Assembly (NCBI RefSeq): GCF_000943565.1
Contig: NZ_JTDW01000003.1
Coordinates: 1 to 64,000 of the forward strand
Reading direction: 5' to 3'
Length of the DNA: 64,000 nt
From: Neotamlana sedimentorum
GTDB taxonomy: Bacteria; Bacteroidota; Bacteroidia; Flavobacteriales; Flavobacteriaceae
Position 1 is the stretch's first letter. Every line of letters starts with the position of its first letter. The notes below the pieces were generated by a model, which worked only from the letters and a program-made list of their open reading frames with translations, was not told where the DNA came from and made no database searches. Below, in pieces: positions 6,075-62,806 of this stretch. A program made the position numbers and the translations under genes.

Positions 6075-6749
6075 ATGTTATCCTTTTTTAAAGATTACAA
6101 AAAGTTTGCTGTAGTTTTTGCAATTATATCGGTAGTTATTCTTGCGTTAATTTACAATACACTTAATGTTTACCAACCGCTAAACATTTACCAACCTGCT
6201 ATGGTTGATGAACAATTGGTAGACAGCACCATACAACACCAACGTAAATATCATAAAATAGCCAATTTTAGTCTTGTAAACCAAAATGGTAAAACCATTA
6301 CACAAGATGATTATAAAGATAAAATTTATGTAGCCGATTTCTTTTTCACCACTTGCCAAACCATTTGCCCTATTATGACAAAAAACATGGCCGATATACA
6401 AAAAGAAATTAAAGATGATGATGAAGTTATGCTATTATCGCACAGCGTAACTCCAGAAATTGACACTGTTGCTCAACTTAAGCGTTATGCCAAAGAAAAA
6501 GGTGTTATTGATAGTAAATGGAATTTAGTTACTGGCGATAAAAAACAAATTTATGAACTCGCTAGAAAAAGTTATTTAGCGGTAAAAGACTTTGGTGATG
6601 GAGGCCCTTTTGATATGATACACACTGAAAACTTTATGCTTATTGATAAAAAACGACAAATTCGTGGGTTTTACGATGGCACAAATAAAGACGATATTGA
6701 GCGTTTACTTAACGATATCGATATTTTAAAGGAAGAAGACAAACAGTAG
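6075..6749 (+). CDS. SCO1/SenC family copper chaperone
   Basis: A 224-residue membrane-anchored, periplasmic thioredoxin-fold protein that delivers copper to cytochrome c oxidase. One N-terminal transmembrane helix (residues ~9-28) is followed by the SCO fold. The copper/redox motif is TTCQTICP, and the conserved His is in DMIHTENF near the C-terminus. I chose the ATG at 6075; an upstream in-frame TTG at 6054 would add seven residues. It may share its downstream region with the structured RNA at 6752. Confidence 0.92.
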   Translation: MLSFFKDYKKFAVVFAIISVVILALIYNTLNVYQPLNIYQPAMVDEQLVDSTIQHQRKYHKIANFSLVNQNGKTITQDDYKDKIYVADFFFTTCQTICPIMTKNMADIQKEIKDDDEVMLLSHSVTPEIDTVAQLKRYAKEKGVIDSKWNLVTGDKKQIYELARKSYLAVKDFGDGGPFDMIHTENFMLIDKKRQIRGFYDGTNKDDIERLLNDIDILKEEDKQ

Positions 6750-6751
6750 TT

Positions 6752-6850
6752 AGCCTACCGCATTAGGGATTGCAGTGGATAGCTTTTGGCGAGGTGCGCA
6801 TCGAGCCAAAACTAGTAACGAAAAGCCCGACCCTTTAGGGGAATGCCCTA
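6752..6850 (+). ncRNA. Probable structured RNA, Flavo-1-like
   Basis: A GC-richer island between two genes, with the phrases gcattagggattgcagtgg, a stem TTTTGGC/GCCAAAA (6784-6813) and gcccgaccctttaggggaa. From memory, this series of phrases recurs between genes across Flavobacteriia and resembles the Flavo-1 RNA motif; I could not run a covariance search. The strand is a guess based on neighbours. Confidence 0.5.
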
Positions 6851-15188: not shown

Positions 15189-17430
15189 ACTCCTTCTCTC
15201 AATTATATTAATTACGGTTTTACCACTAAATGCTCAAGAAGTAAAAGGTAAAATCACCTCAAAAAACGAAGCCCTTCCTTATGTAAACGTGTATTTAAAA
15301 GGCACTACAAAAGGTAACGCATCAAATGAGTTTGGCGATTATCAAATAAAAAATATTAAAGAAGGTAATTATACTATTGTAGCTTCGTTTACGGGTTATA
15401 AATCGGTTGAAAAACAAATTTTCATAAAAAACAACGAGGTACTAACGGTGCATTTTAATTTAAAAGAATCTGCACTGTTAGACGAAGTTACAGTTACCGG
15501 AACCTTAAAACCGGTATCAAGATTAGAAAGCCCAATTCCTGTTGAAGTGTATTCCGCTACATTTTTAAAACAAAACCCAATATCAAATGTGTTTGAAGCA
15601 CTTCAAAACGTTAATGGCGTGCGCCCACAACTTAATTGTAATGTGTGTAACACGGGCGATATTCATATTAACGGTTTAGAAGGCCCGTATACTCTGGTAT
15701 TAATAGATGGTATGCCTATTGTAAGTGGTTTATCAACGGTTTATGGCTTATCGGGTATTCCAAATTCATTAATCGAGCAAATAGAAATTGTAAAAGGTCC
15801 TGCATCTTCACTTTACGGTAGCGAAGCTGTTGGTGGTTTAATAAATATTAGAACCAAACAATTTTTTAAAGCACCACTAGTATTTACCGATGTGTTTTCT
15901 AACAGTTGGGGAGAAACCAATTTCGATTTAGGTTTTAAAACCAACGTTGGTAAAAAAGCCAATGTTTTAGTTGGCGCAAACTATTTTAATTACTCAAACC
16001 CCATAGATAATAACAACGATAATTTTACCGATGTTACGCTTCAAGACCGTATTTCGGTGTTTCAAAAATGGAATTTTGAACGCAACAGCGGAAAAGCTTT
16101 TTCCTTAGCCGGTCGTTATTTTTATGAAGATAGATGGGGTGGCGAAATGCAATGGAATTCATCTTATAGAGGTGGCAACGACATTTACGGAGAAAGCATT
16201 TATACCTCGCGCTACGAAATTATTGGTAATTACGAATTACCGGTTTCAGAACATATGAATTTTCAGTTTTCATATTCCGATCACGACCAAAATTCCGTTT
16301 ACGGCGATACACCCTATATTGCACAGCAAAAAATAGGTTTCGGACAATTACTTTGGGATAAATCTGTAAACAATCACGATTTACTTTTTGGCGTTGCAGC
16401 ACGATATAATTTTTATAACGATAACACCACTGCAACAGTACATGCAGATGAAGTTACAATACCTTCTATTTTTGCTCAAGATGAATTTTCTATAACCGAA
16501 AAACAACACATTTTATTAGGTGCTCGCTATGATTACGACCAACGCCACGGATCTATTTTTACACCGCGTTTAGCCTACCGTTTTAAGCCAACAAAAAACG
16601 ATATTATTCGCCTAAATGCAGGTACAGGTTTTAGGGTTGTAAACCTCTTTACAGAAGACCACGCTGCTTTAACAGGCTCAAGAGATGTTATTATTGAAGA
16701 AGAATTAAAACCAGAGCAATCGTACAACGTTACTTTAAACTATTTAAAAACATTAACTACAAATTCTGGCGAATTGTTTACGTTTGATGCCTCGTTGTGG
16801 TACACCCATTTTACCAATGCGATTATACCAGATTACGACACCAATCCAAATCAAATTATTTACGCAAATTTAGATGGTTATTCAACATCAAAAGGCGCAA
16901 GCTTTAATATTGATGCTATTTTAAACACTAATTTAAGAGCTTCAGTTGGTGCCACATTTCAAGACGTTTCTCAAACAGAAAACAATGTAAAAACACAACA
17001 AATACTAACCGAAAAATTTAATGGTGTTTGGTCGGTTTCCTATAAAAATTATAAAACTAACTTATCTGTAGATTACACAGGAACCATTTACGGCCCCATG
17101 CGATTACCATTATTAGGCGATTTAGATCCTAGAAGCGAATACTCACCAACTTGGAGTATTCAAAATATTCAGCTTACCTTTAACGGACTAAAACATTTTG
17201 AAATTTACGGCGGTGTTAAAAACATTTTAAACTGGACACCAAACAAGGGCAACCCGTTTATTATTGCTAGAAGCGACGATCCTTTTGATAAAAATGTAGA
17301 ATTTGATAACGATGGAAATGCAACAGTTACAGACGATAACCCGTATGCATTAACATTCGATCCGTCCTATGTTTATGCACCCAACCAAGGACGCCGTTTG
17401 TTTTTAGGTTTACGATTTATGATTAACTAA
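15175..17430 (+). CDS. TonB-dependent receptor, probable metal uptake
   Basis: A 751-residue outer-membrane receptor. I start it at ATG 15175 because a signal peptide (residues 1-19, ending LPLNAQ) begins there; 13 upstream codons are also open. After the signal come a carboxypeptidase-like regulatory beta domain (GKITSKNEALPYVNVYLKGT), a plug (LDEVTVTGTLKPVSR, the GPYTLVLIDGMP stretch, IEIVKGPASSLYGSEAVGG) and a 22-strand barrel ending in RRLFLGLRFMIN. The plug has a CNVC pair near residue 147, seen in related metal receptors. Its place inside the mntR operon argues for manganese, zinc or a chelate as cargo. Confidence 0.92.
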   Translation: MKTIKLLLSIILITVLPLNAQEVKGKITSKNEALPYVNVYLKGTTKGNASNEFGDYQIKNIKEGNYTIVASFTGYKSVEKQIFIKNNEVLTVHFNLKESALLDEVTVTGTLKPVSRLESPIPVEVYSATFLKQNPISNVFEALQNVNGVRPQLNCNVCNTGDIHINGLEGPYTLVLIDGMPIVSGLSTVYGLSGIPNSLIEQIEIVKGPASSLYGSEAVGGLINIRTKQFFKAPLVFTDVFSNSWGETNFDLGFKTNVGKKANVLVGANYFNYSNPIDNNNDNFTDVTLQDRISVFQKWNFERNSGKAFSLAGRYFYEDRWGGEMQWNSSYRGGNDIYGESIYTSRYEIIGNYELPVSEHMNFQFSYSDHDQNSVYGDTPYIAQQKIGFGQLLWDKSVNNHDLLFGVAARYNFYNDNTTATVHADEVTIPSIFAQDEFSITEKQHILLGARYDYDQRHGSIFTPRLAYRFKPTKNDIIRLNAGTGFRVVNLFTEDHAALTGSRDVIIEEELKPEQSYNVTLNYLKTLTTNSGELFTFDASLWYTHFTNAIIPDYDTNPNQIIYANLDGYSTSKGASFNIDAILNTNLRASVGATFQDVSQTENNVKTQQILTEKFNGVWSVSYKNYKTNLSVDYTGTIYGPMRLPLLGDLDPRSEYSPTWSIQNIQLTFNGLKHFEIYGGVKNILNWTPNKGNPFIIARSDDPFDKNVEFDNDGNATVTDDNPYALTFDPSYVYAPNQGRRLFLGLRFMIN

Positions 17431-38510: not shown

Positions 38511-38554
38511 GCTCAAGTGGCGGAATTGGTAGACGCGCTGGATTCAAAATCCAG
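38511..38554 (+). pseudogene. tRNA-Leu 5' half
   Basis: 44 bases running from the acceptor 5' strand (gctcaag) through the D-arm and the complete anticodon arm (ctggattcaaaatccag, anticodon CAA). It then stops, followed by 14 AT-rich bases and the intact tRNA-Leu. There is no T-arm or 3' acceptor strand. Confidence 0.85.
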
Positions 38555-38568
38555 ATTTGAAATTTAAT

Positions 38569-38650
38569 GCCTCGGTGGCGGAATTGGTAGACGCGCCGGA
38601 TTCAAAATCCGGTACTGCAAGGTGTGTGGGTTCGATTCCCACCCGAGGTA
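38569..38650 (+). tRNA. tRNA-Leu(CAA)
   Basis: An 82-nt complete tRNA with short variable arm. The anticodon stem CCGGA/TCCGG encloses TTCAAAA (anticodon CAA). The T-arm GTGGG-TTCGATT-CCCAC is canonical. Acceptor GCCTCGG pairs with CCGAGGT, with a G1:U72 wobble, and the discriminator is A. It marks the left boundary of the conjugative element. Confidence 0.93.
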
Positions 38651-38651
38651 C

Positions 38652-38690: not shown

Positions 38691-38712
38691 AGGTACAACA
38701 TAGGTACAACAT
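38691..38712. repeat. Tandem 11-bp repeat, possible integrase arm site
   Basis: aggtacaacat occurs twice back to back (38691-38701, 38702-38712) just inside the element end. Tandem short repeats beside a tRNA are typical arm-type sites of tyrosine recombinases. The integrase itself is not in the window. Confidence 0.5.
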
Positions 38713-38748
38713 TTGGAGTTTTTGATTTATCTCATTTGAATTGTACGC

Positions 38749-38783
38749 TTTTGACTATTAATACTATTGAATCGTATTATTTG
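38749..38783 (+). promoter_or_regulatory. Candidate promoter of the structured block
   Basis: TTTTGAC at 38749-38755 and TATTATTTG at 38775-38783, close to the Bacteroidota consensus but with one extra base in the -7 box. It would produce an RNA covering the structured block before ssb. Confidence 0.3.
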
Positions 38784-38849
38784 GGTGTCTGGTTAATAGT
38801 TTTTAATATGCCGTAATTGTTTTTATTCCCACTCAGCACATTCCCCTAC

Positions 38850-39470
38850 ATTCCAAGCCTGCCTGCTTAAAAAGTAGGCAACCACTTCATTTCGGGAAAA
38901 GAGCTTCACTACAAAGGTCTTGGACACCGTACCCGATTTCTACTTTCCATTTCGCTAACCCGATCCGCTAAGCTGGAACGGGACACTACATTCCCAATCC
39001 GAAATAGGGTACGAAGTCCGCTTTCTCATCGGAAAGTCATCACTTCGGTTTTCTTAACAGGATTTTCGGCATGGTCTTCTTGAGCCCTTACTCGAAAATC
39101 CTTAAAAACCGAACCGCTGTCTTACACATTTTAAGGGGTTTATAATGGATAAAGCCTTTGTTGTTTTTCGGGGCGTCGAAAAACAGGCACGACATAACCA
39201 ATTCTAAAATAAACCCAGCCACTCATTTCGCTTAACTGTCGGTACGCTCAAATCGTAACCGGATTTATAAGAATTGCTAATGCCCTTATGGAACTTGTCA
39301 AGACTATACGAGTTTTAGTGTAAAATAAGGTTTCTACTTCCTTGAAAATCAAAGGATTTTACTACGTCGCAAACACACCTGATTTTGCCCTAAAAGTCTT
39401 GACAAAACCCACTCTATCCATTGTGCGGTGCACGAAAGAAAAGAACAAACACCCCTTAAAATTATATCTG
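38850..39470 (+). ncRNA. Large gene-free structured block upstream of ssb
   Basis: About 620 bases without an open frame but full of paired segments. A hairpin lies at 38860-38880. Arms 38922-38940/39001-39019 match at 16 of 19 positions, and arms 39044-39068/39093-39113 form a long hairpin. A nested domain is closed by 39128-39139/39451-39462 (12 bp, perfect) and 39144-39151/39415-39422 (8 bp). It contains hairpin 39162-39185 (9 bp) and stem 39295-39305/39395-39405 (11 bp). This suggests a large structured RNA or a single-strand DNA origin. Which one is not known; strand is inferred from ssb. Confidence 0.6.
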
Positions 39471-39514
39471 TTTTAAATCAATAGGGGAAATATAAATCAC
39501 TTAAATATTTCATT

Positions 39515-39859
39515 ATGAGTACTATTAAAAATCACGTACAGTTAATTGGAAACGTTGGACAAGAACCAACCATTACGAACCTTGAAAGCGGAAAGAAAGT
39601 AGCCCGTTTTTCACTAGCCACAAATGAGTATTACAAAGACAGTAAAGACGAAAAACAAACGGATACGAATTGGCATACAATTGTAGCCTGGGGCAAGACT
39701 GCTGAAATCGTTGAGAAGTTTGTCGAAAAAGGCAAAGAAGTAGGAATCGCAGGAAAATTAAAAACCCGAACCTACACAACGGACGACGGAAACCAACGCT
39801 ATGTTACCGAAGTGGTAGCGGATGAAATCCTTTTGCTTGGAAGTAAAGGCGATAAGTAA
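39515..39859 (+). CDS. ssb: Single-stranded DNA-binding protein
   Basis: A 114-residue OB-fold protein coating single-stranded DNA. Family phrases: GNVGQEPTITNLESGKKVA at the N-terminus, DTNWHTIVAWGKTAE and VEKGKEVGIAGKL. It lacks the long Gly/Gln linker and the DDDIPF-type acidic tip of chromosomal SSB, so it is a short element-encoded version. It is the first gene of the element, after the structured block, and ends with a terminator at 39871. Confidence 0.94.
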   Translation: MSTIKNHVQLIGNVGQEPTITNLESGKKVARFSLATNEYYKDSKDEKQTDTNWHTIVAWGKTAEIVEKFVEKGKEVGIAGKLKTRTYTTDDGNQRYVTEVVADEILLLGSKGDK

Positions 39860-39935: not shown

Positions 39936-40385
39936 ATGAAAGCACAAGTTAATGAAATAAAAATCAGTTACAAAGGCGGGTTAAAATCTTCTATGTGGCA
40001 TAAAATTAGTAGTTCAAAGGATGCAGCTGAACTACTGTATGAGGATTGGGATAAAGACACAATAGGCATACAAGAAACCTTTAAAGTCGTTCTTTTGAAC
40101 AATAGCAATAAGGTAAAAGGGGTATATCAACTTTCGCAGGGTGGAATTACAAGCACTCAAATAGACCTTCGGATATTGTTTGCGGTTATACTAAAATCTT
40201 TATCAGTAGCTATAATTTTAACGCACAACCACCCAAGCGGAAAATTACAACCTAGTGATGCAGACAGGAGCTTAACGAACAAGATTAAAAAGGCATCCAA
40301 ATTATTCGATATTACCATTCTCGACCATTTGATATTTGCGCCTGATGGCGATTACTATAGTTTTTCTGATAACGGAATTTTGTAA
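39936..40385 (+). CDS. RadC-like JAB-domain protein
   Basis: A 149-residue protein with the JAMM metal motif LTHNHPSGKLQPSDAD (residues ~94-109) of RadC-type JAB proteins. It lacks the N-terminal helix-hairpin-helix region of full RadC. I start at ATG 39936; an open frame extends upstream through the ssb terminator and is unlikely to be translated. Mobile elements of Bacteroidota commonly carry such short RadC homologues near the origin region. Activity is unproven. Confidence 0.88.
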   Translation: MKAQVNEIKISYKGGLKSSMWHKISSSKDAAELLYEDWDKDTIGIQETFKVVLLNNSNKVKGVYQLSQGGITSTQIDLRILFAVILKSLSVAIILTHNHPSGKLQPSDADRSLTNKIKKASKLFDITILDHLIFAPDGDYYSFSDNGIL

Positions 40386-40594: not shown

Positions 40595-40615
40595 TATTCA
40601 ATAGAAATTAAACAG

Positions 40616-40644
40616 ACACCTCTAAAATTTTAGAGGTGTTTTTT
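40616..40644 (+). terminator. Terminator, 24-bp perfect palindrome
   Basis: acacctctaaaa (40616-40627) pairs exactly with 40628-40639, then ttttt. Confidence 0.85.
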
Positions 40645-41028
40645 GTATGTAATCTATCCTACGTCAATAAAAAAACGTATCTTTATTTCGCTGAAATTCA
40701 GCATTCAAATTAAAGTAAGGTTATCCACTTTTCGACTTTCGCCGATACCCTTACATATCGAAAAATAACATATCGGAAAATCATTTTTCCTTGAAAATGG
40801 CAATTGGCTTTTTAGCCGGATTGTATGGATTTTTGTCACGCTTGCGCGTGACGAAAAGGAATAGCAAGAGGGTAACACGCTACGCGATGTTAAAAATTTC
40901 TTTTCATTTTTAAATAACTGATTATCAGTAATTTGAAAACATTTTAATTTCCTGACAATCAACGATTTGCGACAAACGGGCTGGAAACACCCATTTTTTG
41001 GGAAGATTTTGCGACAAATCGGCGAAAT
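40645..41028. other. Candidate oriT region
   Basis: A 384-base gene-free stretch just before the mobilisation genes. It contains a near-perfect 12-bp hairpin at 40830-40857 (core gtcacgc-ttgc-gcgtgac) and direct repeats tttgcgacaaa at 40966-40976 and 41008-41018, 42 bases apart. Hairpin plus direct repeats next to an accessory protein and relaxase is the usual origin-of-transfer layout. The nick site cannot be placed. Confidence 0.55.
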
Positions 41029-41409
41029 ATGGACTCATTTATTGGCATCAGATTCAAAAAGGAAACAGCAAAACGTTTTCAAACATTCTCACGTACTTAC
41101 TTTAAATCGCATACCGAGGCAATGTCCACGATGCTCGATTTTTTCTTCTACAATGAAATTTCGCCAAAGGAAAAATTAGGTCCAACTGGACGAACAATTG
41201 AAGCCAAATTACTCAAAAGAATCAATGCGGTCATTGCTATAATGCGTGACGTAGAAAAGACCCAAACCAAACCTACCGTAGCGATGATTCAATCCCTTTT
41301 TGAGAACGAGGAGCCAAGCAAAAAACCTTTGATAGTTGAAAAGAAATATGCCGAAGAAAAGAAGGAAGTACGCTTTCGTGAAAAGCGGGATCTAAAAAAC
41401 GAACTCTAA
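41029..41409 (+). CDS. BfmA/BtgA-family mobilisation accessory protein
   Basis: A 126-residue basic DNA-binding protein of the BfmA/BtgA type that helps the relaxase at oriT. Visible phrases: FQTFSRTYFKSHTEAMSTMLDFFF and GRTIEAKLLKRINAVIAIMRDVE, probably a ribbon-helix-helix head and helical tail. The C-terminus is Lys/Glu-rich. Its gene directly follows the candidate oriT and precedes the relaxase by 11 bases. Confidence 0.85.
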   Translation: MDSFIGIRFKKETAKRFQTFSRTYFKSHTEAMSTMLDFFFYNEISPKEKLGPTGRTIEAKLLKRINAVIAIMRDVEKTQTKPTVAMIQSLFENEEPSKKPLIVEKKYAEEKKEVRFREKRDLKNEL

Positions 41410-41420
41410 TTTTTTGAGCT

Positions 41421-42452
41421 ATGTATATCACCATCACACCTCAAAAATTAGGAACAAATTACTCACAGAGTTCGGCGGATTTCGTAGGGTATTTAGAGAA
41501 AGAAAATCAAGGTTTGGAACAGCAGGATATGGAACATTTTTTCAATCAATATGGCGATGAGATTTCTGCTAAAGAGGTGGTCAAGGAAATTGATGGAAAC
41601 ACAGCAAAACTGAAAAAGAAAGAACCCAAGTTTTATTCGATTACGGTCAGTCCTTCAAAGTATGAATTAAGAAAACTTCAGGACAATAGTCAAGATTTAA
41701 AACGATACACCAGAGAGCTGATGAAGGATTATGCTGCATCCTTCAATCGGGAAATCAACGGACGACCTGTTACGGTTGATGATATAAAATACTTTGCGAA
41801 AATCGAGCATCAGAGAACTTTTAAAGGAACAGATTTTCAGATTAAAGAAAACCAACCGTATGCAACTAAAATACTTCAGCTCAAAACGGATATCCGTAAT
41901 ATTCAAGAGGGACGAGCTGAGGGAAATATTAAGAGTATGAAAAGAGAAATTGCTAAACTTGAAAAACAAGCACCGCACCAACAAAACGGAAAACGGATAA
42001 CTCAGGGAATGAAAAAAGACGGCGAGCAAAGCCACATCCATATCATTGTGAGCCGGAAGGATGCATCCAATACGTTCAGCCTTTCCCCAGGTAGCAAGCA
42101 CAAAGCTTCAGAAGTTGAGATGCACGGCAAGACTGTAAAACGAGGTTTTGACCGTGACACATTTTTCGCGAAAGCGGAACAAACCTTTGACAAGGCTTTT
42201 GATTATAAGCGCAACTACGCAGAGAGCTATAAAGCCAAAAAGACATTCGTCAAAAACCCAAATCTCTACTTTTCTGCTTTGATGAAACTGCCAGCCAATG
42301 AAAAGGCTTTGGCTTTTAAAATCATAAGCAAATCAGGATTGCCTGTTGTGCCGAGTATTCCAGTAAGTCAGGCGCAAATTGCGCTTCGTGTTTTCAAAAG
42401 ATTAAGACGTGGCGCTGAAATAGCAATTAAATCAAGTTCCATCGGAATCTAA
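41421..42452 (+). CDS. MobB-type relaxase (DUF5712 family)
   Basis: A 343-residue DNA relaxase that nicks oriT and stays bound to the 5' end. The metal-binding histidine pair is SHIHIIVSRKD (near residue 203). The nucleophilic Tyr is probably among the early Tyr residues (Y2 or Y14) but cannot be settled by eye. The middle ~130-195 is charged and helical. It is shorter than large plasmid relaxases, as usual for Bacteroidota elements, and is cotranscribed with the coupling protein 5 bases away. Confidence 0.85.
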   Translation: MYITITPQKLGTNYSQSSADFVGYLEKENQGLEQQDMEHFFNQYGDEISAKEVVKEIDGNTAKLKKKEPKFYSITVSPSKYELRKLQDNSQDLKRYTRELMKDYAASFNREINGRPVTVDDIKYFAKIEHQRTFKGTDFQIKENQPYATKILQLKTDIRNIQEGRAEGNIKSMKREIAKLEKQAPHQQNGKRITQGMKKDGEQSHIHIIVSRKDASNTFSLSPGSKHKASEVEMHGKTVKRGFDRDTFFAKAEQTFDKAFDYKRNYAESYKAKKTFVKNPNLYFSALMKLPANEKALAFKIISKSGLPVVPSIPVSQAQIALRVFKRLRRGAEIAIKSSSIGI

Positions 42453-42457
42453 TCGTT

Positions 42458-44038
42458 ATGCAAATAGATAACCTTATAACGACACTTTCAATTATTGGTA
42501 TGGCCGGTATTGTTTTCTATGTGATATTTCGGATAAGTAGATACGCATTCATCATTAATTTTCTTGTGCTTGGTGCGATGGTGTTCTATTTGACCGAGGA
42601 AAACCGACTGATTCTGATTTCTCTCTATCTGGCTTGCCCTCTCATATTAATTAACATAGGACTATATGTGTTTCTTCATAAAACGGACGAGCTGATAAAT
42701 GGCGACGGTAAATACAAGGTCAACTTCGCTACTACTAAAGGTAATTTCAAACTGGATAATATTAAACGTGGGGCATCCGTCATCGGATCCGCTGGAAGCG
42801 GAAAAACGGAAAGTGTAGTGTATGGATTTCTAAGGCACTTTCGTGAAAATAATTTCTGCGGTATTATCCACGACTATAAAGATTTTGAATTGACCGAAAT
42901 GGCGTATCCGCTTTTCAAGGATAGCGATATTCCGTTTAAGGTCATTTCCTTTGATAAAATTATCCATCGGGTAAATCCTATTGCGCCACGCTATTTAGAG
43001 AATGAGGAAAGCGTAAACGAAGTTTCACGGGTGTTAATTGAAAACCTTTTAGAGCAAAGAGAAAGCGGAACAACTGGCACGACAAAATTCTTCAACGATG
43101 CTGCGGAAGGATTGATTGGTGGATTGATTTGGAAACTAAAAACTGACTATCCTAAATACTGTACGCTGCCACATCTAATAGCCATTTATCAGATGCTCGA
43201 TACCGACAGCCTAATTCAATTTTTGGAAACCAATACCACATCACGAGCAATGGCAGATGCTTTTATAAGCGGTAAAGATTCGGATAGGCAGACCGCAGGT
43301 GTAAAAAGCACCCTGGCCAATGCGTTGAAACGAATTAGTACACAACGGATTTTTATGGTATTATCCGCAGATGAAGTGCCGTTAAATGTAAATAGCGAAG
43401 ATAATCCTGCAATAATTGCTGTAGTGAACAATCCGAAATTTGAGACCTCTTACTCGCCTGTAATCGCAACTATTATTCACACGATTACCAAACAAATGAG
43501 TGTGCGAAATTCAAAACCTTCATTTTTGTTGATGGAAGAAGCGCCGACCATCCGCTTGTTGAATATGCACCGAATTCCGGCAACGTTGCGTAGTTACGAC
43601 ATCGCTACTATTTACGTGATGCAGGATAAAATCCAGAACGATATGATGTATGGAGATAAGGCGAGCAAAGCTATTTTGAGCAATTTGTCCTACCAGTTTT
43701 TCGGTAAGGTAAATGACCCAGATACTGCTAAATATTATGAACGCTTTTTTGAAATTGTAAAGAATCCGACCAAGAGTGTAAGTCGAGGGCATAATCTGGA
43801 TTTCGATACACGCATTACTACTGGCGAAAAGGAAATCCCAAAAATAAGAGCTGATGTTTTCTTTAGATTGAAACAAGGTGAATTTATAATCTATGCTGAT
43901 GGAAAGGATAAGAAAGTACAGTTTAAATTAGCTAATATTAAAAGACAGTTGCCAGAAGAAACAAAGCAGTTTTCACAAGCTGAATTGACAACCAATTTTG
44001 AAAGGGTTTATGATGATGTGCGGTCGATATTTAGTTAA
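42458..44038 (+). CDS. Type IV coupling protein (TraG/VirD4 family)
   Basis: A 526-residue inner-membrane ATPase that brings the relaxase-DNA complex to the transfer channel. Two N-terminal hydrophobic segments (~8-75) are followed by Walker A GSAGSGKT at 110-117, with Walker B PSFLLMEEAPT near residue 355. The layout and length match Bacteroidota VirD4-like proteins. Its 3' end overlaps the convergent HEPN gene by 4 bases, which marks the start of the cargo zone. Confidence 0.93.
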   Translation: MQIDNLITTLSIIGMAGIVFYVIFRISRYAFIINFLVLGAMVFYLTEENRLILISLYLACPLILINIGLYVFLHKTDELINGDGKYKVNFATTKGNFKLDNIKRGASVIGSAGSGKTESVVYGFLRHFRENNFCGIIHDYKDFELTEMAYPLFKDSDIPFKVISFDKIIHRVNPIAPRYLENEESVNEVSRVLIENLLEQRESGTTGTTKFFNDAAEGLIGGLIWKLKTDYPKYCTLPHLIAIYQMLDTDSLIQFLETNTTSRAMADAFISGKDSDRQTAGVKSTLANALKRISTQRIFMVLSADEVPLNVNSEDNPAIIAVVNNPKFETSYSPVIATIIHTITKQMSVRNSKPSFLLMEEAPTIRLLNMHRIPATLRSYDIATIYVMQDKIQNDMMYGDKASKAILSNLSYQFFGKVNDPDTAKYYERFFEIVKNPTKSVSRGHNLDFDTRITTGEKEIPKIRADVFFRLKQGEFIIYADGKDKKVQFKLANIKRQLPEETKQFSQAELTTNFERVYDDVRSIFS

Positions 44039-46054: not shown

Positions 46055-46342
46055 ATGAATTCTAAGAAAACAGTTCTGTTACCAAAATATCAGAAAGTAT
46101 TTGAGCATTTGGGCGAGAATATAAAGCTTGCACGAAAGCGAAGAAAGCTCACAGCTGAGCAGGTTTCCGAACGTGCGGGTATTAATCGGACTACATTGTA
46201 TAGAATAGAAAAAGGCGACCCAGCGGTTGCCATAGGTTCTTATTTTAATGTTTTCAGAGTTCTCAACTTGGAAGATGATTTTAAAAAGCTAGCAGTAGAT
46301 GATGAATTTGGCAGAAAACTTCAAGACCTTGATTTATTATAA
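46055..46342 (+). CDS. hipB: HipB-like XRE antitoxin
   Basis: A 95-residue DNA-binding antitoxin. One XRE/Cro helix-turn-helix covers residues ~18-72 (ENIKLARKRRKLTAEQVSERAGI and TTLYRIEKGDP). It precedes hipA by 5 bases, the usual antitoxin-toxin order, and has a palindromic operator at its promoter. Confidence 0.9.
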   Translation: MNSKKTVLLPKYQKVFEHLGENIKLARKRRKLTAEQVSERAGINRTTLYRIEKGDPAVAIGSYFNVFRVLNLEDDFKKLAVDDEFGRKLQDLDLL

Positions 46343-46347
46343 GAAAG

Positions 46348-47598
46348 ATGGCAACAGGAAAATTTGACATATATGTTTTTGCTGATTGGGTAGGTCTTAA
46401 AGAGCCAACACTAATAGGAACTTTATCGGCACATTTTGCCAAGGGAAAAAAAGCATTCAGTTTTGAGTATGATAAAGATTGGTTAAAAACTGATGCACAA
46501 CGATTGTTAGACCCGGACATCGATTTTTATTCTGGTCCGCAATATCCAACCAACAAAGAGAATTTCGGAATCTTTTTAGATAGTATGCCAGACACTTGGG
46601 GGAAGACTTTAATGAAACGTAGGGCTGCCCAAGATACTAGAGCAAATAATGAAAAGGCTCGTACACTCTATGAAATAGATTATTTACTTGGGGTTTTTGA
46701 TGAAAGTAGAATGGGTGCGTTGCGTTTCAAAACAGATTTAGAAGGTCCTTTTTTAGATAATGATGATAGAACGCCAACACCACCTTGGTCATCATTGGGC
46801 GATTTACAAGAAGCCGTCAAACAGTTAGAAAGTGACGAACAAAATGATGATATACGAAAATGGATTGCAGTGCTGATTGCGCCAGGTTCTTCATTAGGTG
46901 GTGCCAGACCAAAAGCTAACATTTTTGATATCCAAGGAAATCTATGGATTGCCAAATTTCCGTCAAAAACAGATACAGTTGACAAAGCTGCTTGGGAATT
47001 TTTAGCCTATCAATTAGCTACTGCAGCGGGTATAGAAATGGCAGATTCTAAAATAGAGAAGATTAGCGGTCAGTATCACACATTCTTAACAAGACGGTTT
47101 GATAGGGACAATGGAAAACGCATTCACTTTGCGTCCGCTATGACGATGACAGGAAATACCGAAGATATCATAAAAGAGTCTGCACCTAGTTATCTCGAAA
47201 TCGTAGAATTTATAGAAAATTATGGTGCAGATGTAGAAGCCAATTTGCATCAGCTTTGGCGACGCATCGTTTTCAATATTACTATTTCAAACACCGATGA
47301 CCATTTGCGAAATCACGGATTTATATTAACCGATAAAGGTTGGGTTTTATCGCCAGCCTATGATTTGAATCCATCCATAGAAAAAGATGGTTTATCGCTA
47401 AATATCGATATGGATGATAATGCTTTAAACTTTGATTTGGCTAAAAGTGTTGGTGAATATTTTCGATTGAGCGAAAGTGAAATGGAAACTATTTTGGATG
47501 AAGTCCTATCTGTTGTAAAAGAGTGGAAACATATTGCAGAGGAAATGGGAATAAAAAGAAGTGAGGTGGAATTGATGGAAGGGGCTTTTAGATGGTAA
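46348..47598 (+). CDS. hipA: HipA-like serine/threonine kinase toxin
   Basis: A 416-residue kinase of the HipA family. The N-terminal subdomain covers ~1-130 and the Gly-rich loop is SLGGARPKA at 182-190. ATP-binding Lys is K203 (WIAKFP), the catalytic loop is SNTDDHLRNHG at 314-324, and the metal-binding Asp is in AYDLNP at 337-342. All kinase elements are intact. E. coli HipA phosphorylates glutamyl-tRNA synthetase and arrests growth; targets vary in other homologues. It may stabilise the element or serve in phage defence. Confidence 0.92.
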   Translation: MATGKFDIYVFADWVGLKEPTLIGTLSAHFAKGKKAFSFEYDKDWLKTDAQRLLDPDIDFYSGPQYPTNKENFGIFLDSMPDTWGKTLMKRRAAQDTRANNEKARTLYEIDYLLGVFDESRMGALRFKTDLEGPFLDNDDRTPTPPWSSLGDLQEAVKQLESDEQNDDIRKWIAVLIAPGSSLGGARPKANIFDIQGNLWIAKFPSKTDTVDKAAWEFLAYQLATAAGIEMADSKIEKISGQYHTFLTRRFDRDNGKRIHFASAMTMTGNTEDIIKESAPSYLEIVEFIENYGADVEANLHQLWRRIVFNITISNTDDHLRNHGFILTDKGWVLSPAYDLNPSIEKDGLSLNIDMDDNALNFDLAKSVGEYFRLSESEMETILDEVLSVVKEWKHIAEEMGIKRSEVELMEGAFRW

Positions 47599-59131: not shown

Positions 59132-60319
59132 ATGGCAGATAACTTTAACATAATAAGAGCACTTTGTAGGACGGCGTTAACAAACCCAAGCGATGCACTT
59201 ATTCATCAAGTTGAAAGATTAATCAAGAACCTTGAAAAGGAAGGAAAGAAAAAGGAAGCTAAATCGCTTAGCGCTTTATTAGCGTCTGGAAAAAAAGATG
59301 TCCATATGTCTCCTAGCAGAATTGAAAAATCATTTCTACATAATAGAGGTGAAAGTTTAACGAACAATACTGTAATTCCTGTAGACAAAGAAACAGCTAC
59401 TCCTCTTGCTGAAGTTTTTTTTGCTGAGGATTTACCTACCGAGATGCCTGTGTTTGATATAAAAATGGAAGAGGTTATAATTTCAATAATTAATGAGTGG
59501 ATGAAATATGATAGATTATTAGAGATAGACGCATCGCCTGCGAACTCTTGTTTAATTTATGGAGTTCCTGGTACTGGTAAAACCCATTTGGCTAAATGGA
59601 TTTCAAAAGAAATTAATATCCCAATTGTTCTTGCAAAATTAGATGGATTAATGTCATCGTTTTTAGGGACTACCTCCAGAAATATTGGCAATCTATTCAA
59701 ATTTGCCAATAGATATAACTGCGTATTGCTACTCGATGAATTTGATGCTATCGCGAAATTGCGAAATGACCCTCACGAAGTAGGGGAAGTTAAGCGAGTA
59801 GTAAATACTTTATTACAGAATCTAGATTCAAGGAGGGGAATTGGTTTTACTATAGGAGTTACCAATCACGAAGGATTACTAGACCCTGCAATTTGGAGAA
59901 GGTTTGATGTTCAAATTGAAATTCCAAGACCCACACAAAAAGTAATGATGGAGCTGTTGAAAGAGTTTTTAAAGCCTATAGATTTAGCTGATAGCGAAAT
60001 GAAATTTTTAACGTGGTGTATTGAAGGTGCTTCTGGAGCTGATGCAAAAGTATTGGCTAATTGGATTAAAAAGTCTTCTATTCTTAGCGATAAAACACCA
60101 ATGGTAGATACAATGAGAAAGTTTGCATTATTAAATACTGGGAGAGTTAAGGATGATAAGAGAAACCTGTTTATTGGTAACGATGAAAATTTAATTTCGA
60201 CACTCATAAAAGATGAAAATTATGCCTTTAAACAAAAAGATATTGCCTCATTATTTGGCATGACACAATCATCATTAAGCAAATTACTTTCAAAACAAAA
60301 AGAAGTAGAAAATATTTAA
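59132..60319 (+). CDS. ietA: AAA ATPase of an IetAS-like system
   Basis: A 395-residue soluble AAA+ ATPase. The N-terminal ~110 residues are charged helices without a recognised domain. The AAA core has Walker A GVPGTGKTH near residue 146, Walker B VLLLDEFDAIAK near 202, sensor GFTIGVTNHEG and Arg finger in AIWRRFD. The C-terminus has a helix-turn-helix-like segment (QKDIASLFGMTQSSLSKLL). It is 3 bases upstream of a subtilase gene. This ATPase-subtilase pairing matches IetAS, first described on Agrobacterium Ti plasmids and later reported as a phage-defence system. Confidence 0.82.
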   Translation: MADNFNIIRALCRTALTNPSDALIHQVERLIKNLEKEGKKKEAKSLSALLASGKKDVHMSPSRIEKSFLHNRGESLTNNTVIPVDKETATPLAEVFFAEDLPTEMPVFDIKMEEVIISIINEWMKYDRLLEIDASPANSCLIYGVPGTGKTHLAKWISKEINIPIVLAKLDGLMSSFLGTTSRNIGNLFKFANRYNCVLLLDEFDAIAKLRNDPHEVGEVKRVVNTLLQNLDSRRGIGFTIGVTNHEGLLDPAIWRRFDVQIEIPRPTQKVMMELLKEFLKPIDLADSEMKFLTWCIEGASGADAKVLANWIKKSSILSDKTPMVDTMRKFALLNTGRVKDDKRNLFIGNDENLISTLIKDENYAFKQKDIASLFGMTQSSLSKLLSKQKEVENI

Positions 60320-60322
60320 AGT

Positions 60323-62806
60323 ATGTCAAATAGTCCAGTACAAGTAATTTTAAACACCAACGATTTTATCGAGTCTTGGGAAAGAAATCCAGGAGGTTCA
60401 AATAAAGACTTTTTTGAAGATAATGATTTGGAATTCATTGCTCACAAGCAAAATATTCAGGAGCAGTTGAATCAAATTAAGTCTTTACAAATTGTCAGTA
60501 GTTATGCTCCTGTTTCCTATGCAAAAGTTATTCTAAAGCAAACAGCATTAGCTAAATCCCATAGGCCAACTTCACAGCTGTTCAAACCTGATGTCGCTCC
60601 AGTTGTTGGTGCTGGTGACTTAGGAGAATTATTTGTTGAGTTAAATCCGGATAGCGTCAATTATGTAACCTCAAGAATAGAACGTGCCGAACTAAAGACA
60701 AAATATAAAGAAAAGAATGGAAAACTGGTGGCAAACCCTTCTACTTACAGGAGTGAGCTTGGAGCGATTGAAGAAATTTTACCTTATTCTGCAAGTGATA
60801 AGCGAAAGTTTTCCTTAAAAGAAGGAGTTGAATGGCTTGCCAATCACCGTACTGGTGGAGCATATATTGTAGAATTATTTGATTCTCCACCTCCGAGAAA
60901 AGATTGGGATATGCTGCCACAAGATAAGTTGAAACTGTTCAGCACCTTTATAAGTGGACTTAGAGAATTAGGATTAGGGGTAACTGCTTTGAAGTTAGTT
61001 GATAGAATTGGTACAGGAACAATTTTTGGAATTAGAATTGAAAAAGGCTCTGATGCAGCAAAAGTAAATCTGACACTGTCCCCATCTTCCGCTGGTAGAA
61101 ATGAAAAGCCGATTGAAGTTGATTTGAATATAGATAAACATTCAAAGTTAATAGATTTCTTGGAAAGTCATCCTTTAGTGAAGAAAATTAACCTACCGCC
61201 AATTATTACGCAAAGTTATTCAAGAAAACCCTCTATTACAGGTGAAAATTTTAAGATTCCAAAGTTTAAGGAGAATCAGCAATATCCAAAAATTTGTATA
61301 GTCGACGGAGGGGTTTCGGACATTTATTCCGATTGGATTGAAAGGAGGTGGGGTTTATTAAGTCCATCGGATAAAGATGAGGCTCACGGAACTTTCATTG
61401 CTGGATTAACCATTCTAGGACAAAGTTTAAATGGTCAACAAATATGTAAAGAACTTGACGGTTGCAAAATCATCGATTTAGATATATTACCAAAGCAAGA
61501 AAAACACTCTACATATTATTCCAAACCACTTGAGTTTTTCAATGAACTTGAAGAAGCAGTACAACAGCTAACAATAGAAACTGGTGTAAGAATTTTTAAT
61601 TTCAGCTTAAATATTGATGAGCACGCTAGTACTTCTGGTTACAGTCTACCAGCTCAAATACTAGATGGAATAGCAGAGAAAAATGATGTTATTTTTGTCA
61701 TATCAGCAGGTAACACGAATGCACCTTGGATTAGAAAAGAGTGGCCAGATGATAATCTAGAGGCGTTAAAAATATTAGCTAAATCTAGAAATGATACAAT
61801 CAAGACTCCCGCAGAAAGCTCTAGAAACATAAGCGTTACTGCCCTAAACCCACCAGATGTCGACGGGACTATTCCTTATGCATTGAGTAATTATAGTTGC
61901 AGAGGCCCTGGTTTAAGAGCTGGATTGAAACCTGATTTTGCCCATATTGGAGGTTCTGGAACTAAAAGTGCTAAATTCGGTCACGGGTTATATTCATTAG
62001 ATGGGACTAGTAAAATTATTGATGGGTGTGGCACCAGTTATGCAGCTCCCAATGTAGCAAAAACTTTGGCCAGTTTAGATGCGTCAATTGAAGGGGCTGT
62101 CTCAAGAGAGACACTAATTGCCTTAGGCGTTCATAATGCAACGTTACCAAATTCTTTAGATAATAAAGATTTATCGAGTGTCGCAAAGGACTTAATAGGC
62201 TTTGGTATTCCAAATGGTTCAGAGGAAATACTTGAGGGAGACCCATCTTCAATTACTTTAGTTTTTGCGAATAGAATAATCAATAGGCATAAGATGAGTT
62301 TTAAATTCAGCTGGCCTTCGACCCTTGTGAAAAATGGAAAATGTACGGGTAAGGCTAAATTGACCATAGTTAGTACTCCGGATTTTGATTATAAATATGG
62401 GAGTGAGTTTGTGAGAATTAATATAGATGCCTATTTACGACAACAAAATCGAGATGGTAAATATGTTGGACGTCTTAAGTCAATATACACTCCAGATGAT
62501 GGAGAGAGTAGTTTGTACGAAAAAGACCAAATACAACATTCCTTCAAATGGAGTCCAGTAAAAGTTTATGAAAAGACTTTCCCTAAAGGAGTGGGTCCAA
62601 CTACTGATTGGTCATTAGATGTGGAATATTTGGCTAGAGATGGTGCTAAACTCCCGAAAAAGGGTGTTCCTTTTACCGCGATTTTAACTATCTCAGACCC
62701 TAAAAAAGAAGAACCCGTATTTAATGATATGAGACAGACATTACAATCATTAGGAGTTAATACAGTGGATATCAAAACAGCAACTAGAATCATACCTAGA
62801 GTTTAA
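60323..62806 (+). CDS. ietS: Subtilisin-like serine protease of an IetAS-like system
   Basis: An 827-residue S8-family protease. No signal peptide is seen, so it acts in the cytosol. The N-terminal ~320 residues are of unknown fold. The catalytic triad is Asp328 (IVDGGVSD), His355 (EAHGTFIAG) and Ser572 (GCGTSYAAP), with the oxyanion Asn in FVISAGNTNAP. The last ~180 residues are beta-rich. All active-site residues are intact. It is coupled to the AAA ATPase that probably controls it. Confidence 0.85.
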   Translation: MSNSPVQVILNTNDFIESWERNPGGSNKDFFEDNDLEFIAHKQNIQEQLNQIKSLQIVSSYAPVSYAKVILKQTALAKSHRPTSQLFKPDVAPVVGAGDLGELFVELNPDSVNYVTSRIERAELKTKYKEKNGKLVANPSTYRSELGAIEEILPYSASDKRKFSLKEGVEWLANHRTGGAYIVELFDSPPPRKDWDMLPQDKLKLFSTFISGLRELGLGVTALKLVDRIGTGTIFGIRIEKGSDAAKVNLTLSPSSAGRNEKPIEVDLNIDKHSKLIDFLESHPLVKKINLPPIITQSYSRKPSITGENFKIPKFKENQQYPKICIVDGGVSDIYSDWIERRWGLLSPSDKDEAHGTFIAGLTILGQSLNGQQICKELDGCKIIDLDILPKQEKHSTYYSKPLEFFNELEEAVQQLTIETGVRIFNFSLNIDEHASTSGYSLPAQILDGIAEKNDVIFVISAGNTNAPWIRKEWPDDNLEALKILAKSRNDTIKTPAESSRNISVTALNPPDVDGTIPYALSNYSCRGPGLRAGLKPDFAHIGGSGTKSAKFGHGLYSLDGTSKIIDGCGTSYAAPNVAKTLASLDASIEGAVSRETLIALGVHNATLPNSLDNKDLSSVAKDLIGFGIPNGSEEILEGDPSSITLVFANRIINRHKMSFKFSWPSTLVKNGKCTGKAKLTIVSTPDFDYKYGSEFVRINIDAYLRQQNRDGKYVGRLKSIYTPDDGESSLYEKDQIQHSFKWSPVKVYEKTFPKGVGPTTDWSLDVEYLARDGAKLPKKGVPFTAILTISDPKKEEPVFNDMRQTLQSLGVNTVDIKTATRIIPRV

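Follow-up and report, generated by a model that had tools for sequence, protein, structure and literature searches.

The region upstream of ssb

A gene-free block of about 630 bases (38829–39462) lies between a tRNA-Leu(CAA) gene and ssb; it belongs to an integrative conjugative element of Neotamlana sedimentorum and is situated at its left end (Table 1). Positions are those of the window, the whole stretch of 64,000 nucleotides analysed, unless the name of a locus (L) or genome (G) precedes them. A 20-base core from the 3' part of the tRNA recurs at L187:11431–11450 (attR, about position 75440 in window numbering), beside a tyrosine integrase gene. The 23-base repeat common to both ends of the element may represent integrase arm sites. 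A truncated 5' tRNA copy at 38517–38552 and a tRNA 3' half at the right end of the element fit integration into the tRNA-Leu gene. The attachment sites, the integrase and the linkage to mobilisation genes reported below bear out the earlier note, made from the letters of the window, which had called the block element-borne.

The RadC-like gene is followed by a 65-aa ORF and by a conserved intergenic region with inverted repeats, a candidate oriT, from the alignment of which no polarity of oriT could be read. The next gene, the putative mobC, owes this name to its position only. The DUF5712 gene is likewise a putative relaxase gene by position; Pfam gives no function for DUF5712, and no mention of this domain was found in the open-licence literature searched.

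Other features mark the window. Judged by eye, 46055–47598 (plus strand) resembles a HipB/HipA pair, with one small helix-turn-helix gene and one gene of 416 aa. Also by eye, 59132–62806 (plus strand) contains an AAA-type ATPase gene and, after it, a large gene of subtilase-like sequence; the two may form a defence pair carried by the element. A Flavo-1 RNA, an Rfam family, was identified at 6748–6836 of the plus strand (49.5 bits, gathering score 42).

Table 1. Features at the left end of the element (positions in the window; +, plus strand; -, minus strand)
Feature	Position	Strand	Evidence or description
tRNA-Leu(CAA), left attachment site (attL)	38569–38651	+	ARAGORN; 20-base core repeated at L187:11431
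23-base repeat common to both element ends	38692–38714		exact repeat at L187:11283
Module A2	38829–39026	-	branched structure, present in repeated copies in relatives; matched by model R1 with 160.7 bits
Module A1	39034–39123	-	long hairpin separating A2 from B; contains inverted repeats I2 and I11
Domain B	39128–39462	-	335 nt; closing 12-bp stem 39128–39139/39451–39462
ssb	39515–39859	+	Pfam SSB, 1.1e-33
RadC-like JAB gene	39936–40385	+	Pfam RadC, 8.2e-35
Conserved intergenic region with inverted repeats	40595–41028		alignment of 22/39 non-redundant upstream regions
126-aa gene, in place of mobilisation accessory gene	41029–41409	+	no Pfam family above cut-off
DUF5712 gene	41421–42452	+	Pfam DUF5712, 7.2e-116
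Type IV coupling protein gene	42458–44038	+	Pfam TrwB_AAD_bind, T4SS-DNA_transf

A conserved fold on the minus strand

The block holds no ORF of 60 aa or more, in agreement with its first description as free of open frames, and at least seven stops interrupt each of the six frames. Gaps in the alignment of relatives do not come in threes (by eye), and a decayed gene, one of the outcomes envisaged by the earlier note, was rejected. The stretch 38850–39470 folds better than shuffled sequences on both strands (z = −6.2 plus, −5.7 minus; 0/20 shuffles as good on either), and the degree of order is thus above chance, as had been claimed. The longest perfect inverted repeat in the block measures 12 bases, a length that none of 40 mononucleotide shuffles reaches. 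Both stems singled out beforehand are real: the closing stem of domain B is a perfect 12-bp inverted repeat, and the inner stem 39144–39151/39415–39422 is part of an 11-nt, 91% complementary repeat (39144–39154/39412–39422). The limits first proposed, 38850–39470, do enclose a structured gene-free region, but the conserved unit spans about 38829–39462; similarly, the domain described is real, but two further modules, A1 and A2, lie to its left, and the conserved fold is that of the minus strand.

What is evolutionarily conserved in the block is a fold of the minus strand, the strand opposite to ssb. The consensus fold of domain B (19 sequences) measures −85.2 kcal/mol on the minus strand versus −48.8 on the plus strand, that of domain A (A1 and A2, 18 sequences) −69.0 versus −10.0 kcal/mol, and A1 is paired on the minus strand in the same 18-sequence alignment. 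Homologues feature many compensatory changes, and the covariation that the earlier note had put forward as a check was therefore found: both sides have changed in 27 of the 40 pairs of A2 (34 sequences), and in 32 of the 108 pairs of B (19 sequences), in which the closing stem is invariant (identical in 19/19). None of 500 shuffles of A2 and B reaches any of five covariation measures, counts not to be read as probabilities, because the aligned sequences are related and the structures derive from the same alignments. When partners are slid by 1–3 columns, paired cells fall from 91.6% to 33–52% in A2, and from 96.5% to 36–52% in B. On the minus strand G-U pairs make up 9–15% of cells, A-C pairs 0.4–2%; this asymmetry and the compensatory changes over 335 nt point to a fold of the single-stranded minus strand. 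Letters in the loops of A2 and B are conserved. Single-sequence z-scores for A2 fail to tell the strands apart, whether computed with RNA energies (−2.9 and −2.7) or with DNA energies. Pairs predicted by RNAalifold with DNA and RNA energies number 10 versus 40 in A2, 52 versus 69 in B2 (a domain described below), and 100 versus 108 in B.

Distribution and modules in related genomes

DNA of the region was matched in 61 of 296 related genomes, with a query which took in 169 bases left of the block, some matches covering these bases only. A search with the pattern of the closing stem added at least 118 further stretches. Among the matches listed (80 titles), nearly all come from Flavobacteriaceae or Flavobacteriales, one from a Saprospirales bin. 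A2 was identified in 76 of 249 sampled Flavobacteriaceae genomes. A draw across the phylum gave matches in 11 of 345 genomes; 8 of these belong to the same family, and 2 of the other 3 matches are weak. By blastn at E 1e-5, 38820–39515 has no match in 50,697 phage records or in 72,556 plasmid records. Five viral contigs match an 18-base pattern, none with a match to the A or B profile, and a phage or plasmid origin was rejected. A second A2 copy of the N. sedimentorum genome (G000:C32:72290–72466; loci L155 and L186) resides in a decayed relative of the element, in which the DUF5712 gene is broken.

B was found in 143 of 153 loci, directly beside A in 135 of these, and one locus carries a second, partial B. 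In the window B ends about 50 bp before ssb; among the 126 loci that extend 450 nt or more past a complete B, 123 have the start of ssb 36–97 nt from B (median 53), no ssb being detected in L061, L096 and L124. The locus counts are not independent, since the two collections from which the loci come overlap. Two consecutive ssb-like genes follow the block in L008, L068, L076, L078, L110 and L115.

Extra A2 copies are either arranged in tandem, about 35 nt apart, or kilobases apart with genes in between. In 12 loci B is missing, and another domain, B2, is found between A2 and ssb, followed by a short basic ORF. In nine of these 12 loci B2 also folds on the minus strand (−50.7 versus −15.6). In L029, L168, L177 and L194 the basic ORF (44–59 aa, MGSKSK...) is immediately upstream of ssb, and its start overlaps the outer stem of B2. 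A third conserved leader of about 185 nt, B3, fills the gap between A2 and parB in L189 and L190, and lies between A2 and an ORF of 52–64 aa in L004, L013, L038 and L167. In L070, A2 is followed by a small ORF, and then by a DUF932 gene.

Variable hairpin tips of A2 and B2 hold palindromes, such as GTCCCGATAGCTATCGGGAC (L007, L011, L013, L016, L038, L056, L194), as if small repeated palindromes had been inserted there. ParB and a 181-aa gene are framed by two A2 copies in L189 (5272–14791) and L190 (8267–12397). Four genes in opposite direction sit between the 181-aa gene and A2 in L189 and L192, and are absent in L190 and L193. Their order is presumably that of the Wadjet system; the 1057-aa protein of the insert has no match in Pfam.

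Direction and placement

In loci where ssb was detected, every one of the 213 A2 copies has the same direction relative to ssb, the fold strand being the ssb template; the count includes redundant loci and leaves aside 27 copies in loci without ssb. Mobilisation genes are found beyond ssb in 58 of the 62 loci with at least 2.6 kb of sequence there. Of the 249 Flavobacteriaceae genomes, 76 carry A2, 71 DUF5712, and 60 both (Fisher p 3e-31). Among 150 A2 copies listed, 105 are within 30 kb of the DUF5712 genes used; 103 of these are found on the same side of the DUF5712 gene as ssb, their fold strand being the one opposite to that gene, and 72 of the 103 are 2.2–2.8 kb away from it. The exceptions are one copy in G132 and one in G175. 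Neighbouring dispersed A2 copies have the same direction in 26 pairs, opposite directions in one; the sole A2 copy opposite to its neighbour (G132:C6:135928–136101) is on the far side of the DUF5712 gene. A2 folds stand, in fixed direction, before the genes which probably enter a new host first.

Comparison with the leading region of the F plasmid

In F, the genes for SSB, ParB, psiB, a small ORF and DUF932 share their strand with traM, traJ and traY, which they precede; 2 of 22 features of this stretch are on the other strand. We take oriT to be located between the leading genes and traM/traJ/traY. Pfam identifies DUF932 and ParB domains both in the leading region of F and in the flavobacterial elements.

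According to the sections consulted of a report on F (PMC9849209), the single-stranded promoter Frpo2 is upstream of ssb, yfjA, yfjB, psiA and psiB, the single-stranded promoter Frpo1 upstream of ygeA and ygeB; both fold as single strands, and their deletion abolishes early expression. By position, ygeA-ygeB may be the counterpart of the small ORF and DUF932 gene. The Frpo block is itself repeated, being found at 15,378 places in the best 5,000 records. Two F copies and six relatives served as yardstick: they fold better on the transferred strand (−196.6 versus −174.8 on the other), feature 7.8% G-T versus 0.3% A-C, and have 7 versus 9 pairs with double changes, so that the transferred strand does not stand out by covariation. 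Since Frpo is large, folds better on the transferred strand and has 7.8% G-T, neither size nor the share of G-U pairs is an argument against single-strand DNA.

Like Frpo1 and Frpo2, the block is non-coding, large, located in a leading region, upstream of ssb, and repeated within one element; it is also found upstream of a small ORF and DUF932 group, matched by position. Its better consensus fold is that of the minus strand, which would match Frpo if this is the transferred strand. In contrast to Frpo it resides in another phylum, associates a module A2 with exchangeable domains B, B2 and B3, and lacks clear promoter boxes in A2 and B. Sequence similarity is also missing, as model R1 and the A2, A and B profiles match neither the leading region of F nor six Frpo-like pieces. 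In gene direction, TAnnTTTG was found within the block in 0 of 24 homologues, and the full Bacteroidota promoter consensus in neither A2 nor B. Sites with one mismatch are at chance level in B (1/24) and A2 (0/22); they occur in 8/12 B2 and 6/6 B3, both sets of related sequences, and in B2 on the other strand too (12/12). Having been searched for promoter boxes and for sequence homology with these results, the block is not assigned to Frpo/ssi.

Other structured elements

GOLLD, ROOL and OLE are large, branched, covarying noncoding RNAs, some linked to mobile elements. They and the block have size, branching and covariation in common; the block differs in that it matches no Rfam family and that its A2 modules occur in several copies tied to one direction. 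Rolling-circle plasmids and ICEs carry single-strand origins (sso), strand-specific folds which start second-strand synthesis; the block, a strand-specific fold as well, is likened to them by description.

A known Rfam family was rejected, including STAXI, which we take to be an Rfam family: in the window the block has no match at gathering score, permissive settings giving five chance-level matches far below it, and none of six relatives has a match at gathering score. The Rfam check proposed earlier thus assigned the block to no family. When the leading region of F was scanned against Rfam with E up to 0.1, neither STAXI nor any match at the Frpo places came up. In the sections consulted of Weinberg et al. 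(2010, PMC2864571), STAXI is a structured motif, tandem-repeated near ssb, antirestriction and integrase genes, for which the authors weighed single-stranded DNA against RNA. The block shares with STAXI, as there described, structure, tandem repetition, vicinity to ssb and the DNA-or-RNA question; unlike the block, STAXI is in that description a short pseudoknot in two or three copies (PMC2864571). Titles and abstract starts in the open-licence literature searched gave no description of the element. The family is new here, modular and in another phylum, and its nearest kind is that of the leading-region single-strand elements.

Function of the block

With moderate confidence, and by analogy, we read the block as a leading-region single-strand element which would work like Frpo/ssi, as a promoter or primer site, with no sequence similarity to them. 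Its probable site of action is the single strand that enters the recipient. If the element has the same transfer polarity as F, the minus strand is the strand sent, and the folded blocks occupy the place of Frpo; the collinearity with F suggests that this is the case. The minus strand, arriving single-stranded, would fold at A2-A1-B, and the folded region would let an enzyme, proposed to be RNA polymerase or primase, start RNA on it. Such a start would allow ssb and other leading genes to be expressed ahead of second-strand synthesis, or would prime the second strand. As no full promoter consensus is present in A2 or B in gene direction, the Frpo/ssi-like mechanism is offered as a proposal.

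A new large, modular noncoding RNA of the GOLLD, ROOL and OLE kind, running leftward from near ssb and acting for the element, with B as its 5' domain and A1-A2 as its 3' domains, is the main alternative, and a tentative case can be made for it. It agrees with the covariation, with the excess of G-U over A-C pairs, with the conserved loop letters of A2 and B, and with A2 pairs being far more numerous with RNA than with DNA energies. Relaxed to TTG-N17-23-TAnnTTT, the promoter pattern is somewhat enriched upstream of B, being present on the minus strand of 39 of 79 sequences against a shuffled mean of 24.6, but the full TTG-N17-23-TAnnTTTG was found in 0/79 (minus strand, within 460 nt of B), no terminator-like site is nearby, and such an RNA leaves unexplained why A2 copies dispersed over kilobases keep one direction and the ssb side. 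A sigma-70-type promoter was rejected, the one match (38751–38780) comparing with a shuffled mean of 1.9. The earlier note had offered either an element-borne RNA or single-strand DNA structures near ssb. Single-strand DNA on the transferred strand is now favoured, because of the fixed direction and the place before classes of leading-region genes, but the RNA alternative still stands.

Gene order alone suggested that A2 could be a recombination site bounding gene cassettes, like an integron attC folded on one strand. In several loci A2 copies, all in one direction, separate groups of accessory genes mostly in the same orientation, and this reading was initially preferred. It was dropped, and is now deemed very improbable, given that the ssb side of A2 is joined to a conserved domain (B, B2 or B3) and not to free cassettes, and that the foreign four-gene insert of L189 and L192 ends beside A2 at one side, its other end having no A2. 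A double-stranded control region or plus-strand ssb leader (protein binding site or riboswitch) is equally hard to credit: the invariant closing stem of B, as a protein site might have, and the closeness of B to ssb would suit it, but compensatory changes over 335 nt and the G-U asymmetry demand a single-stranded minus-strand fold.

The favoured reading, a single-strand element of the leading region, may be taken further, to modular Bacteroidota switches in which a common A2 joins exchangeable B, B2 or B3, one set per leading operon. These would start RNA on incoming single-stranded DNA without Frpo boxes, hence by another recognition code or a dedicated factor. This extended form is speculative, and rather unlikely as it stands.

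In the open-licence literature searched, gene expression from incoming single-stranded DNA has been shown for enterobacterial plasmids. If the reading as a leading-region single-strand element is true, the block would be a Bacteroidota counterpart, of independent sequence, placed before the same gene classes (SSB, ParB, DUF932), and model R1 would be a marker for leading regions and transfer polarity in Bacteroidota elements. If the block is RNA instead, it would define a new large modular RNA family, marking the 76 of 249 sampled Flavobacteriaceae genomes that carry A2. Either way, how these elements express genes or start the second strand on entry becomes testable.
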